Notes under the pieces: generated by a model
Seen by the model: the letters and a program-made list of their open reading frames with translations, nothing else
Databases searched by the model: none
What the model was told of the DNA's origin: nothing
Position numbers and translations under genes: made by a program
Assembly (NCBI GenBank): GCA_017383945.1
Contig: JAFNUQ010000010.1
Location: 1 to 11,039 of the forward strand
DNA from: Bacteroidales bacterium
Lineage (GTDB): Bacteria > Bacteroidota > Bacteroidia > Bacteroidales > UBA932
Length of the DNA: 11,039 bases
Reading direction: 5' to 3'
Part shown: positions 1 through 10,228 of the stretch, piece after piece
How positions within the stretch are numbered: position 1 is the first letter of the stretch
How the letters are laid out: each line of letters starts with the position of its first letter

Positions 1-362
<362 letters not shown>

Positions 363-363
363 A

Positions 364-1668
364 ATGAAACAGGATATGATCGTAATCTTGGATCTCGGTA
401 GCCACTATAATACTGTTGTGGCTCGTGCTATCCGTGCAATGGGTGTGTACAGCGAGATCTATCCACATGACATCACTGCAGCAGAGCTCAAAGCTCTACC
501 TAACGTAAAAGGTGTTGTTATCAACGGTGGAGAAAATAATGTAATTGACGGAGTAAGAATTGACGTACTCCCTGAAATCTACGAGGCAGGTTTCCCTGTT
601 ATCGCAGCTGGTCACGAATTGGCAAAATGTGAGAATCTTGCTGAATTCTCAGATGATGAAAAGGCTATTGAGGATGCACTTCGCGGCTTTGTCTTTGACG
701 TGTGTGGCGCTCAGGCCAATTGGAACATGACCAATTTTGTTGCTGACCAGGTTGAGCTCATCCGTGAGCAGGTGGGTGATAAGAAGGTTCTCCTTGCACT
801 CTCGGGTGGCGTAGACAGCTCTGTAGTTGCAGCATTGCTTCTCAAGGCAATCGGTAATAACCTTGTATGCGTGCACGTAAATCATGGACTTATGCGCAAG
901 GGTGAGTCTGAGGCTGTTGTTGAGGTATTTGGTCGTCAGCTTAACGCTAACCTTGTTTATGTAGATGCAACAGATCGTTTCCTCTCAAAACTTGAAAACG
1001 TCGCAGATCCTGAGGAAAAGAGAAAGATTATCGGTGGCGAGTTTATCCGCGTATTCGAGGAGGAAGCACGCAAACTTGATGGAATTGACTTCCTCGGACA
1101 GGGTACTATCTATCCTGATATCGTAGAGAGCGGTACCAAGACTGCTAAGATGGTTAAGTCTCACCACAATGTGGGTGGTCTTCCTGAAGATCTTCAGTTT
1201 GCACTTGTTGAACCACTTCGTCAGCTTTTCAAGGATGAGGTAAGAGCTTGCGGTGTTGAGCTTGGTCTTCCATATGAGATGGTATATCGTCAGCCGTTCC
1301 CAGGTCCAGGCCTTGGCGTGAGATGTCTTGGTGCAATCACTCGTGATCGCCTTGAGGCTCTCCGTGAGTCAGATGCAATCCTTCGTGAGGAGTTTGCTCT
1401 CGCTGGTCTTGACAAGAAAGTATGGCAGTACTTTACAGTAGTTCCAGATTTCAAGAGCGTAGGTGTTAGAAACAATGCCCGTTCATATGACTGGCCAGTA
1501 ATCATCCGTGCTGTCAATACAATTGACGCGATGACTGCTACTATCGAGCACATTGATTGGGCTATCCTTGACAAGATTACAAAGCGTATCCTTGCTGAAG
1601 TGCCAAACGTAAACCGCGTGTGCTACGATATGTCACCTAAGCCAAGCGCTACAATCGAGTGGGAGTAG
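364..1668 (+). CDS. guaA: GMP synthase with intact ATP-pyrophosphatase and degenerate glutaminase domain
   Basis: GMP synthase adenylates XMP and aminates it to GMP. The synthetase half looks complete in this 434-residue protein: PP-loop SGGVDSS at residues 147-153, GQGTIYPDIVES near 246-256, the lid segment KSHHNVGGLPE near 265-275, PGPGLGVR near 313-320, and the canonical C-terminus ending ATIEWE. The N-terminal class I amidotransferase half is not normal. It starts recognisably (VILDLGSHYNTVVAR) but the segment that should read PVLGICYG reads PVIAAGHE, so the nucleophilic Cys is replaced by Gly83. The stretch carrying the catalytic HPE (His and Glu) is absent. Family members are about 510-525 residues; about 80-90 are missing, all before the PP-loop. 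The reading frame is intact, so this is not a frameshift. The start at 364 has an SD-like AGGAG and lies one base after guaB. It presumably uses free ammonia or a separate glutaminase subunit (inference). Confidence 0.93.
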   Translation: MKQDMIVILDLGSHYNTVVARAIRAMGVYSEIYPHDITAAELKALPNVKGVVINGGENNVIDGVRIDVLPEIYEAGFPVIAAGHELAKCENLAEFSDDEKAIEDALRGFVFDVCGAQANWNMTNFVADQVELIREQVGDKKVLLALSGGVDSSVVAALLLKAIGNNLVCVHVNHGLMRKGESEAVVEVFGRQLNANLVYVDATDRFLSKLENVADPEEKRKIIGGEFIRVFEEEARKLDGIDFLGQGTIYPDIVESGTKTAKMVKSHHNVGGLPEDLQFALVEPLRQLFKDEVRACGVELGLPYEMVYRQPFPGPGLGVRCLGAITRDRLEALRESDAILREEFALAGLDKKVWQYFTVVPDFKSVGVRNNARSYDWPVIIRAVNTIDAMTATIEHIDWAILDKITKRILAEVPNVNRVCYDMSPKPSATIEWE

Positions 1669-7052: not shown

Positions 7053-8729
7053 ATGGCTGACGAGAAGATTATATTTTCGATGAACGGGGTGGGAAAGATC
7101 CTGCCTCACAATAATAGAGTGATACTCAAAAACATCTACCTGTCATTTTTCTATGGTGCCAAGATTGGTATCGTCGGACTTAATGGTTCAGGTAAATCTA
7201 CCTTGATGAAGATAATCGCCGGAATAGAAAAAGGTTATCAAGGTGAGGTCGTATGGGCTCCTGGATATTCTGTAGGATATCTTGAGCAGGAACCTCAGAT
7301 GGATCCGGATAAAACAGTTATTGAAGTTGTGCAGGAGGGCGTGCAGGAGGTAATGGACGTCCTTAAAGAATATGAGGAAGTTAACCTCAAGTTCTGTGAG
7401 CCGATGTCTGATGATGAGATGGCCGCTTTGATTGAGCGTCAGGGTGTGCTCACCGAGAAGATTGAGGCTTGCGACGGTTGGGAAATCGAGTCTAAGCTTG
7501 AGAGAGCAATGAATGCGCTTCAGTGTCCTCCATCGGATGCAAAGGTTGCAAATCTCTCAGGAGGTGAGCGTCGTCGTGTGGCTCTCTGCCGACTTCTGCT
7601 TCGCCAGCCGGATGTGCTTCTGCTTGATGAGCCGACCAACCACCTTGATACAGAGAGTATCCAGTGGCTTGAGGCGCACTTGCAGCAGTACAAGGGTACT
7701 GTTATCGCTGTTACCCACGACCGTTATTTCCTTGACAATGTTGCAGGTTGGATTCTTGAGCTTGATAGAGGTGAAGGTATTCCTTGGAAGGGTAATTACT
7801 CTTCTTGGCTTGATCAGAAGAGCACCCGACTTGCGCAGGAAGAAAAGCAGGAGAGCAAGCGCCGCAAAGCCCTTGAGCGAGAGCTCGAATGGGTGCGTAT
7901 GGCTCCTAAGGCGCGCCACGCGAAGTCTAAGGCCCGTCTGGGTGCATATGAGAAACTAGCTGCTGATGACGGAAGGGAGAAAGAGGCAAATCTTGAGATC
8001 TTTATCCCTAACGGACCGCGTCTGGGTAACAAAGTCATTGAGTTTAATAATGTGTCCAAGGGTTACGGGGATAAGCTTCTTTATGAAAACCTCAACTTTG
8101 TGCTTCCTCCAGCCGGTATAGTCGGTGTGATCGGTCCTAACGGTGCAGGTAAAACCACGCTCTTCCGTCTTATTATGGGACTTGATACTCCTGATAGTGG
8201 AGAGATTACTCTTGGTGAGACTGTTAAGATTGCCTATGTTGACCAGCAGCACAAGAGCATCGACCCTGAGAAAACTGTATTTGAGACAATCGCGGAGAAT
8301 TCTGAGTTTGTGAGACTTGGCAAGAGAGAAGTTAATGCTCGTGCCTATGTGTCACGTTTTAATTTCTCAGGTGCTGATCAGGAGAAGCTCTGTGGCGTAC
8401 TCTCCGGAGGTGAAAGAAATAGACTCCATCTCGCGTTGACCCTCAAGGATGAAGGTAATGTGCTTCTGCTTGATGAGCCTACCAATGACGTTGATGTAAA
8501 CACTATCCGTGCGCTGGAAGAAGGTCTTGAGAACTTTGCCGGATGTGCTGTCGTGATCTCCCACGACCGTTGGTTCCTCGATCGTATCGCAACCCATATT
8601 CTTGCATTTGAGGGTGACTCTCAAGTGCACTTCTTTGAAGGTACATATTCAGAATATGAAGAAGATAAGAAGCGTCGCCTCGGCAACGAAGAGCCTAAGA
8701 GATTTAAATACAAGAAGCTCATGGCATAG
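7053..8729 (+). CDS. ettA: Energy-dependent translational throttle protein EttA (ABC-F)
   Basis: EttA is a soluble ABC-F protein that binds the ribosomal E site and gates the first elongation steps according to the ATP/ADP ratio. The 558-residue sequence, against about 555 in E. coli, has two ABC domains and no membrane segments. Domain 1 has Walker A GLNGSGKST (42-50), signature LSGGE (168-172), Walker B LLLDEPTNHLD with Glu193, and switch His222. Domain 2 has GPNGAGKTT (361-369), LSGGE (450-454), LLLDEPTNDVD with Glu475, and His504. The inter-domain linker (about 240-305) is charged and helical, with the PKARHAKSKAR block characteristic of this subfamily's P-site tRNA-interaction motif. Both catalytic glutamates are present, so it should be active. 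The start is the only ATG that fits the -7 box at 7022. It is monocistronic, ending in the terminator shared with rpsU. Confidence 0.95.
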   Translation: MADEKIIFSMNGVGKILPHNNRVILKNIYLSFFYGAKIGIVGLNGSGKSTLMKIIAGIEKGYQGEVVWAPGYSVGYLEQEPQMDPDKTVIEVVQEGVQEVMDVLKEYEEVNLKFCEPMSDDEMAALIERQGVLTEKIEACDGWEIESKLERAMNALQCPPSDAKVANLSGGERRRVALCRLLLRQPDVLLLDEPTNHLDTESIQWLEAHLQQYKGTVIAVTHDRYFLDNVAGWILELDRGEGIPWKGNYSSWLDQKSTRLAQEEKQESKRRKALERELEWVRMAPKARHAKSKARLGAYEKLAADDGREKEANLEIFIPNGPRLGNKVIEFNNVSKGYGDKLLYENLNFVLPPAGIVGVIGPNGAGKTTLFRLIMGLDTPDSGEITLGETVKIAYVDQQHKSIDPEKTVFETIAENSEFVRLGKREVNARAYVSRFNFSGADQEKLCGVLSGGERNRLHLALTLKDEGNVLLLDEPTNDVDVNTIRALEEGLENFAGCAVVISHDRWFLDRIATHILAFEGDSQVHFFEGTYSEYEEDKKRRLGNEEPKRFKYKKLMA

Positions 8730-8735
8730 CAAAAC

Positions 8736-8765
8736 AAAAAACCGGCCCGGATGGGTCGGTTTTGT
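8736..8765. terminator. Bidirectional terminator between ettA and rpsU
   Basis: ACCGGCCC (8741-8748) pairs with GGGTCGGT (8753-8760), with one G-U pair and a 4-nt loop; flanking A and T runs extend the stem. On the plus strand it is followed by TTTGTTT. On the minus strand it is followed by TTTTTTGTTTT (complement of 8730-8740). It therefore can stop both convergent transcripts. Confidence 0.85.
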
Positions 8766-8785
8766 TTATCTAGTTGGGCGATAAA

Positions 8786-8980
8786 CTACTGCTCGTCCTC
8801 AAGACGAAGATGCTGAACGTAGATAGCCTTCATACGAGCTACACGACGCTTTGCAGATGGCTTCTCGAAATTCTTACGAGCACGGAGCTCACGAATCGCG
8901 CCTGTCTTCTCGAACTTTCTCTTGAATTTCTTAAGAGCTCTCTCGATATTTTCACCCTCTTTTACTGGTACGATAATCAT
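8786..8980 (-). CDS. rpsU: Small ribosomal subunit protein bS21
   Basis: bS21 is a small basic protein of the 30S platform that sits near the 3' end of 16S rRNA. The 64-residue product has the expected N-terminus (MIIVPVKEGENIERALKKFKRKFEKTG), a basic arginine/lysine-rich middle (KRRVARMK) and a short acidic tail. In Bacteroidota, bS21 is part of the pocket with bS6 and bS18 that sequesters the anti-SD sequence, and rpsU has been reported to keep an SD for self-regulation (established for Flavobacteriia; recalled, not looked up). This gene fits that pattern: a near-perfect extended SD precedes it at 8987-8997. It has its own promoter (9013-9042) just downstream of the ATPase-like gene and ends at the bidirectional terminator. 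Confidence 0.95.
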   Translation of the reverse strand: MIIVPVKEGENIERALKKFKRKFEKTGAIRELRARKNFEKPSAKRRVARMKAIYVQHLRLEDEQ

Positions 8981-8986
8981 CTTTAA

Positions 8987-8997
8987 ATCACCCCCTT
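8987..8997 (-). promoter_or_regulatory. Strong extended Shine-Dalgarno sequence of rpsU
   Basis: On the minus strand the sequence is AAGGGGGTGAT, ending 6 nt before the rpsU ATG at 8980. It pairs over 11 positions with the 3' end of 16S rRNA (complement AAGGAGGTGAT), with one G-U pair instead of A-U. It is by far the longest such match in front of any gene here. Most other starts have none. Confidence 0.8.
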
Positions 8998-9012
8998 TTT
9001 CTTTTGAGGTCG

Positions 9013-9042
9013 CAAAGTTAAGAATTTATTTTAAATCAGCAA
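9013..9042 (-). promoter_or_regulatory. Promoter for rpsU
   Basis: On the minus strand: TTG (9040-9042), 19 nt, TAACTTTG (9013-9020), an exact TAnnTTTG match with ideal spacing. Transcription would start near 9006, giving a leader of about 25 nt that consists mostly of the SD. Confidence 0.75.
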
Positions 9043-9051
9043 GTCTGTCAA

Positions 9052-10206
9052 TCAGATTTTTAGGCCAAAATAGAAATTGCTTGCCCAATACTCAAACAGC
9101 GGGTCAAGAACTATAGGATGATTGTCATCTTTGAAATAAATGATCTCCTTTTTACTCAATGCGTCTTTGAGTCGCTTTACGTTGGCTGAAGAATTGAGTT
9201 TATACTCTTCGATCACTTCTGTGCTGGTAAATTTATTGTGACCACAAAGTATGGCTTTGAGCAGACTGACCTGAAATGTTGTGAGATCATTCATAATCTT
9301 CTCGAAGCGTGGCTCGTGGATTGAAATCAAAATATCCAGAGCCTCATTGAGGATAGGTTCCATGATATAACCTCTTGTTAAAGAGTCACATATGGAGGCA
9401 AAATGGTTTATGTACCAGATGTTGTTTCTAAATAGGGTACAAGTGCCAAGGAGCAAGTCCTTGTCAATTACCTTACCGGTAGTCAGGAACCCGCGGGTGA
9501 TATATTCTATTATCTCTCGTGTCTCGATTTGGCTCACCTCAAGTCTCTCCACCTGCCTGTAGAAGTACTTCTTCACACCGAAAATCTCGTGCATTGCATT
9601 GTGACTGCTGCCTGTAAACAGGTACTGCGCCTGAGATCTTTGCTCGAGGCTCAACGATTTGAATATTCCTTGAAGCAGGTTGCAGACTTTTTCTCCATCT
9701 TCAGTCTGCATAATGTTCTGAAATTCCTGAAGCAGGACGATCAGGCGGCGTCCCTTCCATGCAGCAGCTTTGTAGGGGAGTTCCAATATCGCCTTGATGT
9801 CCTGGTCATCCAGACTCCAGCTGAGCGAGAGGATGTCTCCTGTTGCTTCATATTGCTTCTCGTCAAAGACGAAGTGACTTTCTCCCAGCAGATTGGCAAC
9901 GGCATTGCTGTATTCTCCCGGAGTGCTTGCAATTTTGCCGATTATGGCTGAGCCAAGGCGAATGCAGAATTGGCTCACAGAGCGAGTGCTTAGAATAGAA
10001 TACTCTACTGTGGTAAACTGCACGCCGCTGTTCTTCATGTTGGTAAATGTCTGGTTGATGATAGACATTACACCGGTTTTGGGCGGCTCATATATTGTGA
10101 CATTCTCTCCCTGATTGAGGAATGTGGCGAGCAAGCGGCAATCTTCTTTGCGACCAAGAAACTCTTTAGTGCTCACCGGCTTGCTGTAATTGAAAGTACT
10201 TGGCAT
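9052..10206 (-). CDS. P-loop ATPase-like protein with C-terminal winged helix, Walker motifs degenerate
   Basis: The 384-residue protein has the architecture of the archaeal-type AAA ATPase group common in Bacteroidales. It starts with a FLGRKEDCRLL-like region (16-26), then a P-loop region (38-50), a Walker B region (153-163), a sensor-like strand FTGSSHNAM (197-205), a C-terminal winged-helix segment (about 310-358) and the typical ending DPLFEYWASNFYF. Two key motifs are altered. The P-loop reads YEPPKTGVMSI, with Val46 where the Walker lysine should be. Walker B reads LIVLLQEFQNI, with Gln160 replacing the aspartate; Glu161 remains. ATP hydrolysis is therefore doubtful. I start at the ATG at 10206; the in-frame TTG at 10212 adds two residues only. 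No signal peptide or transmembrane segment is seen. Its role is unknown. It lies directly upstream of rpsU but each has its own promoter. Confidence 0.75.
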   Translation of the reverse strand: MPSTFNYSKPVSTKEFLGRKEDCRLLATFLNQGENVTIYEPPKTGVMSIINQTFTNMKNSGVQFTTVEYSILSTRSVSQFCIRLGSAIIGKIASTPGEYSNAVANLLGESHFVFDEKQYEATGDILSLSWSLDDQDIKAILELPYKAAAWKGRRLIVLLQEFQNIMQTEDGEKVCNLLQGIFKSLSLEQRSQAQYLFTGSSHNAMHEIFGVKKYFYRQVERLEVSQIETREIIEYITRGFLTTGKVIDKDLLLGTCTLFRNNIWYINHFASICDSLTRGYIMEPILNEALDILISIHEPRFEKIMNDLTTFQVSLLKAILCGHNKFTSTEVIEEYKLNSSANVKRLKDALSKKEIIYFKDDNHPIVLDPLFEYWASNFYFGLKI

Positions 10207-10228
10207 AAACAATTATGTTACAATGCTA

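Follow-up and report, generated by a model that had tools for sequence, protein, structure and literature searches.

A short GMP synthase with half a glutaminase domain in Bacteroidales and Bacillota, and a matching loss in CarA

Results

Architecture of the short guaA gene

The window, that is the whole stretch of DNA analyzed here, comprises 11,039 nucleotides from the draft genome of a Bacteroidales bacterium (assembly GCA_017383945.1, contig JAFNUQ010000010.1, forward strand). At its start lies the 3′ end of guaB, encoding IMP dehydrogenase (3..362, plus strand; PF00478, 136.7 bits), and the guaB stop codon ends one base upstream of the start of a short guaA gene. This gene occupies 364..1668 on the plus strand and encodes 434 amino acids followed by a stop codon, as determined by translation, profile search and alignment to E. 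coli GuaA. The reading frame is open throughout 364–1668. Its conserved start is the ATG at 364; a mechanical list of open reading frames starts earlier, with a GTG at 289. Elsewhere in the window, 9052..10212 on the minus strand encodes a 386-amino-acid protein for which Pfam gave no match at 1e-5.

The synthetase half of the short GuaA is intact, as a previous reading of the sequence alone (the sequence-only reading) had claimed. Residues 125–434 (736..1665, plus strand) form the ATP pyrophosphatase and dimerisation part. The GuaA C-terminal model TIGR00884 matches residues 124–434 over its positions 1–310 of 310 with 455.9 bits (cutoff 338.75), and GMP_synt_C (PF00958) matches residues 342–433 (1387..1662, plus strand) with 127.7 bits (cutoff 27), so that a complete synthetase domain scores above both curated cutoffs. 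The PP-loop SGGVDS lies at residues 147–152 (802..819, plus strand), beginning at the residue that had been proposed. Across 44 aligned sequences from all GuaA forms, the PP-loop and residues D252, E255, K265, H267, H268, K290 and R294 are invariant.

In the N-terminal half, only residues 1–82 (364..609, plus strand) retain the glutaminase (GATase) fold, of which they make up the first half, as indicated by TIGR00888, PF00117, pLDDT and dN/dS. TIGR00888, the model of the GuaA N-terminal domain, gave 48.4 bits (cutoff 172.15) and matched over positions 1–75 of 188, and PF00117 matched over only positions 1–76 of 190; the half-domain is thus still recognisable and in frame, in agreement with the previous reading. 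In the alignment, residues 5–82 correspond to residues 9–85 of E. coli GuaA (1gpm) and residues 106–434 to 194–525, and E. coli residues 86–193 have no counterpart. About 108 glutaminase residues, comprising the region of the Cys, His and Glu, are exchanged for about 23, which form a variable linker at residues 83–105 (610..678, plus strand). The catalytic triad of E. coli GuaA is C86/H181/E183. The segment with the His and Glu is missing, as had been suspected, and AAGHE is found in place of the expected GICYG, with Gly83 in the nucleophile column.

Below, GuaA proteins that keep this first glutaminase half are called half-shell and those without even that half shell-less. The reported loss of the nucleophilic Cys holds for the whole half-shell form. 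The half-shell set numbers 102 sequences, all different in the synthetase part. The nucleophile column could be parsed in 101 of them, and none of these has a Cys (Gly in 78, Asp in 16, Ala in 4, Ser in 2 and Glu in 1); the single unparsed sequence reads MISVDY, also without Cys. An H-P/A-E tripeptide occurs between residues 83 and 125 in 4 of the 102 sequences. It is taken as non-catalytic, because in the sequences inspected it appears as CHAEANW and lies past the deletion.

Structure prediction from a deeper alignment gave a pLDDT of 89.4 for the short GuaA, compared with 67.5 for a first model based on 28 rows. Most ten-residue blocks of the shell (residues 1–82) were predicted at a pLDDT of 88–97, and residues 259–266 of the lid loop at less than 50. 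Taken together, the complete synthetase and the lack of a complete glutaminase with Cys, His and Glu define the window protein as a GMP synthase that is not a glutamine-hydrolysing GuaA.

A conserved family under purifying selection

To place the short GuaA among its relatives, genome contigs were scanned. At least 595 candidate stretches were listed, and 593 of these code for GuaA relatives. The best 80 of the 593 all align to residues 1–434 or nearly so (the slightly shorter matches include L069 with 1–430 and L091 with 2–434) at 76–91% identity. These 80 half-shell loci fall in Bacteroidales and Bacillota, and they carry 80 distinct guaA DNA sequences, isolates included. Prevalence was counted at E ≤ 1e-170, a cut that is reached by half-shell rows alone. 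With the window's genome counted, the half-shell form was present in 10 of the 393 genomes from the window's order and in 2 of 395 from the phylum sample. In the class of the Robinsoniella genome G108 it was present in 19 of 391, G108 counted.

Mobile elements and RNA families were also searched. Among plasmids, 75 records match at E ≤ 1e-120, 4 of them over at least 80% of the query, and 3 of the 20 matches listed cover 100% of the short GuaA. Two plasmid records label short relatives as glutamine-hydrolyzing GMP synthase. One half-shell guaA (8001–9308) adjoins a kdp operon on NZ_OY725961.1, a circular 14.5-kb record of Bacteroides finegoldii that is called a plasmid and may be a chromosomal piece. 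In phages, 16 records match and the short form was recognised in none; two align over 83% of the query with 54% identity, the others over at most 79%. A search of Rfam in 16 sources (the window and 15 of the best 80 of 593 loci) returned two tRNAs and one c-di-AMP riboswitch and no RNA element over guaA, and regulation of the short guaA by such an element was rejected.

We calculated dN/dS for 88 pairs of moderate divergence among 59 equal-length half-shell sequences. The pooled values were 0.042 for the shell, 0.129 for linker residues 83–105, 0.066 for residues 106–122 and 0.053 for the synthetase. Purifying selection thus acts on the shell no less strongly than on the synthetase half, and the shell is maintained.

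These results bear on the origin of the short form. The previous reading had judged it an evolved loss, with a loss of about 250 bp in assembly as the finding that could refute this. A deletion of about 250–320 bp inside an ordinary guaA could be suspected in a draft genome that is 81% complete and split into 252 contigs, but such an error is excluded because the best 80 of 593 relatives, at distinct loci and some of them from isolates, encode the same short architecture, and a dN/dS near 0.05 argues against it as well. We regard its probability as negligible. Our results support an evolved loss of the glutaminase in a conserved family.

Phylogeny of glutaminase-less GuaA

The relationships among GuaA forms were analyzed in a tree of 96 rows and 311 synthetase columns, built by a quick method. 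The half-shell sequences form one group (35 rows, support 84). Nine shell-less rows form another, the first shell-less group (support 97). These two groups are sisters with a joint support of 100 and stand beside full-length enzymes of Bacillota. The question whether short GuaA proteins are a clade is thereby answered, with the half-shell form on one side and its shell-less sister group opposite. The 17 half-shell rows from Bacteroidota are nested within those from Bacillota (support 88), which suggests gene transfer.

A second shell-less group (6 rows) joins full-length GuaA of Bacteroidales with a support of 100. It is represented by stretches L209–L215 from the window's genus, whose proteins start with MYNGEKLNPK. 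When all glutaminase-less rows were forced together, the tree became 48 log units worse, with a p-AU of 0.079 that does not reject this arrangement at 0.05. A single origin of all glutaminase-less forms is thus disfavoured, and the second shell-less group is likely an independent loss of the glutaminase. At residue 321 (1324–1326 in the window), almost every glutaminase-less sequence in either group carries a Cys and full-length enzymes mostly an Ile; this shared residue is possibly a case of convergence.

The only GMP synthase detected in many genomes

As had been proposed, we searched for a second, full-length guaA, using the window's genome (81% complete) and 232 genomes of its genus that are at least 85% complete. 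A GMP_synt_C match was found in 230 of these 233 genomes, and in the window's genome the short GuaA is the only GMP synthase detected. From the 232, 37 genomes were chosen by eye for a best GMP_synt_C score weaker than that of full-length enzymes. At least 34 of the 232, all drafts, show a glutaminase-less GuaA only (14 half-shell, 20 shell-less; 14 of the 34 have a completeness of 90% or more), a lower bound since the weak-scoring genomes were picked by eye. The remaining three are G220, with a contig-edge fragment only, and G149 and G259, which also carry a broken full-length GuaA and are the only two of the 37 to reach the TIGR00888 cutoff. Two genomes, G315 (96% complete) and G057 (94%), gave no TIGR00888 match at E ≤ 0.001, so that this model sees hardly any typical class-I glutaminase in them, if any. 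All genomes are drafts, and any one of them might hold a full-length guaA that escaped detection; the sets of glutaminase-less genomes overlap (G120 and G195 share sequence), and their counts are not summed.

A check of 26 of the genomes behind the best 80 of 593 loci gave a mixed picture. A GuaA glutaminase domain above the TIGR00888 cutoff is present in 13 of 13 isolates and in 5 of 13 metagenome-assembled genomes (MAGs); in the other 8 MAGs the short form is the single GMP synthase match, and TIGR00888 stays below cutoff. This co-occurrence, together with short and full-length genes adjacent in several loci, could point to a role of the short protein as regulatory or heterodimer partner of full-length GuaA, and not as an enzyme of its own. 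However, the 34 genus genomes and the 8 MAGs hold glutaminase-less forms only, and the catalytic residues of the synthetase are invariant, which makes such a partner role very unlikely.

Source of ammonia and substrate

An enzyme without a glutaminase could receive ammonia in trans, and the sequence-only reading had offered a separate glutaminase, as in archaea, as an alternative. The half-shell would then dock an unrecognised or shared glutaminase in the manner of the archaeal two-subunit enzyme, and its strong conservation is what a contact surface would show. Nevertheless, TIGR00888 was over cutoff in none of 15 glutaminase-less-only genomes (the window's genome included; drafts, in which single misses are possible) but in 3 of 3 control genomes with full-length GuaA, so that the separate GuaA-type glutaminase of the archaeal system was not found and this alternative gained no support. 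In addition, no conserved glutaminase neighbour of guaA was found in the window and the best 80 of 593 loci, and the related shell-less forms likewise occur alone. We consider docking unlikely. At 4 of these 80 loci, in Bacillota, a member of one and the same cluster lies one or two genes upstream of guaA, and one such member was identified by profile as a diaminopimelate dehydrogenase; this number is too small to build a case on.

The synthetase has substitutions peculiar to the clade, among them F171 to H, which raise the alternative that the short GuaA has shifted to a substrate or product other than XMP to GMP. Against this, guaA lies directly downstream of guaB in the window, the TIGR00884 equivalog score is well above cutoff, and the single-copy genomes would be left without a GMP synthase. 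We find such a shift highly improbable. Across the forms, a same-strand guaB within 300 nt accompanies 11 of 94 half-shell copies, 11 of 22 and 6 of 7 copies of the two shell-less groups, and 6 of 30 full-length copies.

Loss of the glutaminase site in CarA

Apart from the short GuaA, the window's own genome has a single GATase match, CarA, the small subunit of carbamoyl-phosphate synthase (contig C11; 1474–2412 of stretch L002, minus strand), which passes two profile cutoffs and whose gene adjoins what reads as carB. Its nucleophilic Cys is replaced by Glu (GVELG) and its triad His by Gln (VQFQPE), so the site looks dead. The previous reading was silent on this matching loss, which was found in the present analysis.

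Of 53 stretches collected for a probable carA gene, 52 gave a readable CarA, to which that of the window's genome was added. Three were dropped before counting: L236 (identical to L226), L275 (triad intact, from G220 with its contig-edge fragment of GuaA) and L276, a second CarA-like frame of G168 in which the Cys is present and the remaining triad positions hold Gln and Asp. Ten CarA proteins, mostly without the Cys, were scanned with profiles, and all scored above the CarA cutoffs. Among the 50 genomes counted, the CarA Cys is absent in 25 of 27 with a glutaminase-less GuaA only, but in just 1 of the 23 whose GuaA has a glutaminase domain (Fisher 9e-11, uncorrected for kinship). The exceptions are G035, with an intact triad, G139, with the Cys kept and His replaced by Tyr, and G126, with the Cys lost despite a glutaminase domain. 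Because CarA was found via weak TIGR00888 matches, 15 of the 34 genus genomes had no CarA-length row and were left out of this sample.

The residues replacing the CarA Cys vary (Glu, Gly, Ser). In a tree of CarA, the state of the Cys requires at least six changes, and CarA of the window's genome is placed among intact CarA of Bacteroidales. The association with GuaA comprises only three to five independent contrasts, and a sign test is not significant.

Other GATase proteins of glutaminase-less-only genomes were read in 9 profile-scanned frames from 20 stretches. HisH kept its Cys and HPE in 6 of 6 cases and the triad was intact in the sole PyrG, a CTP synthase; judged by the sampled HisH and PyrG, the proposed switch of GuaA and CarA is therefore selective. 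Two frames weakly resemble gamma-glutamyl-GABA hydrolase below cutoff (L283, 385–1170, and L287, 437–1192, both minus strand; genomes G215 and G197) and have, as the pattern reads, Ser or Ala at the elbow instead of Cys. The loss of Cys may thus extend beyond GuaA and CarA.

The lid loop and the retained shell

The lid loop of the window protein (residues 255–267; 1126..1164, plus strand) carries the clade-specific sequence ESGTKTAK. Lid length was counted as the residues that separate (Y/W)PDxx from the K in K(S/A)HHN. It is 10 residues in 102 of 102 half-shell sequences, mostly ESGTKTAKMV. Full-length GuaA has 10–12 residues in 66 of 67 cases, with one unparsed. The first shell-less group has 5 residues in 16 of 22 sequences and 6 in the other 6 (by eye where the pattern missed), and the second has 9 in 7 of 7 (by eye). 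Since the half-shell lid length also occurs in full-length enzymes, shortening of the lid accompanies loss of the whole shell. The shell may thus stand in for the glutaminase as a cap, and shell-less forms may have adapted the lid instead. A cap over the synthetase lid would fit the data slightly better than a docking surface or a sensor of XMP.

Discussion

We propose, with a probability of roughly 0.78, that the short GuaA is a GMP synthase that depends on ammonia and has kept its shell, and that it is part of a selective switch of two nucleotide amidotransferases to free ammonia. The ammonia dependence predicted from the window gains support from the conserved family, the selection acting on it, the intact synthetase and the status of sole GMP synthase. 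In the proposed mechanism, ATP would adenylate XMP in the synthetase half, and cytosolic ammonia would attack the adenyl-XMP intermediate to yield GMP. Hydrolysis of glutamine would not be possible, because the glutaminase nucleophile, His and Glu are gone. Selection maintains the half-domain, whose role is most likely that of a structural cap packed on the synthetase near the lid loop. The glutaminase site of carbamoyl-phosphate synthase is likewise lost, here and in most sampled genomes with glutaminase-less GuaA only, and an ammonia-rich gut may be the cause. In a broader and more tentative reading, GMP synthase and carbamoyl-phosphate synthase may have become obligate users of free ammonia repeatedly and selectively in gut Bacteroidales and Bacillota. 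These bacteria would have kept glutaminases such as HisH and PyrG, and may have re-used the half-shell as a fixed cap with a clade-specific lid, with a shortened lid instead in the shell-less groups.

The family and its spread, the selection on the shell, the lid correlation, the shell-less relatives and the matching CarA loss go beyond the sequence-only reading. In a review, bacterial GMP synthases are described as two-domain enzymes (PMC10526850), and in the table of a 2012 survey of 730 genomes guaA is fused to a glutaminase in 100% of cases; 44% of genomes with nadE lack a glutaminase for it, and none do for guaA (PMC3376133). Bacterial GMP synthase is thus presented as always glutaminase-linked in both sources. 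No bacterial GMP synthase without glutaminase was found in the open-licence literature searched. The same review describes the synthetase module as independent of the glutaminase and able to use external ammonia, and gives for all GMP synthases studied a Km for ammonium above that for glutamine, with 174 mM ammonium in the human enzyme as the highest tabulated (PMC10526850). Use of ammonia in vivo would therefore require high ammonia or an adapted enzyme, and a GuaA without glutaminase makes the use of free ammonia by amidotransferases in vivo testable. If our proposal is true, these gut bacteria need ambient ammonia directly for purine and pyrimidine synthesis, and the short GuaA should be insensitive to inhibitors of the glutaminase site. 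The short GuaA is also prone to misannotation, as it passes the cutoff of a model named glutamine-hydrolyzing GMP synthase.

The two-domain GuaA enzymes of E. coli (1gpm) and A. baumannii (7sbc) have the triad, whereas the window GuaA lacks the nucleophile, the His, the Glu and about 108 residues. It differs from GuaAb, the ATPPase subunit of the archaeal two-subunit GMP synthase (6jp9, 2dpl), by keeping the half-shell, and the archaeal enzyme has a separate glutaminase, of which no GuaA type was found with the window GuaA. In its action, the short GuaA most likely resembles ammonia-dependent NadE, which in its single-domain form is an N-type ATP pyrophosphatase that amidates with free ammonia and has no glutaminase (PMC3376133), but acts on another substrate. 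Human CPS1 is an ammonia-fed amidating enzyme that keeps an inactive glutaminase domain with the Cys replaced by Ser, and it parallels both the GuaA shell and the seemingly dead CarA; CPS1 retains the whole glutaminase-like domain, however, and the window GuaA its first half only (PMC4655335).
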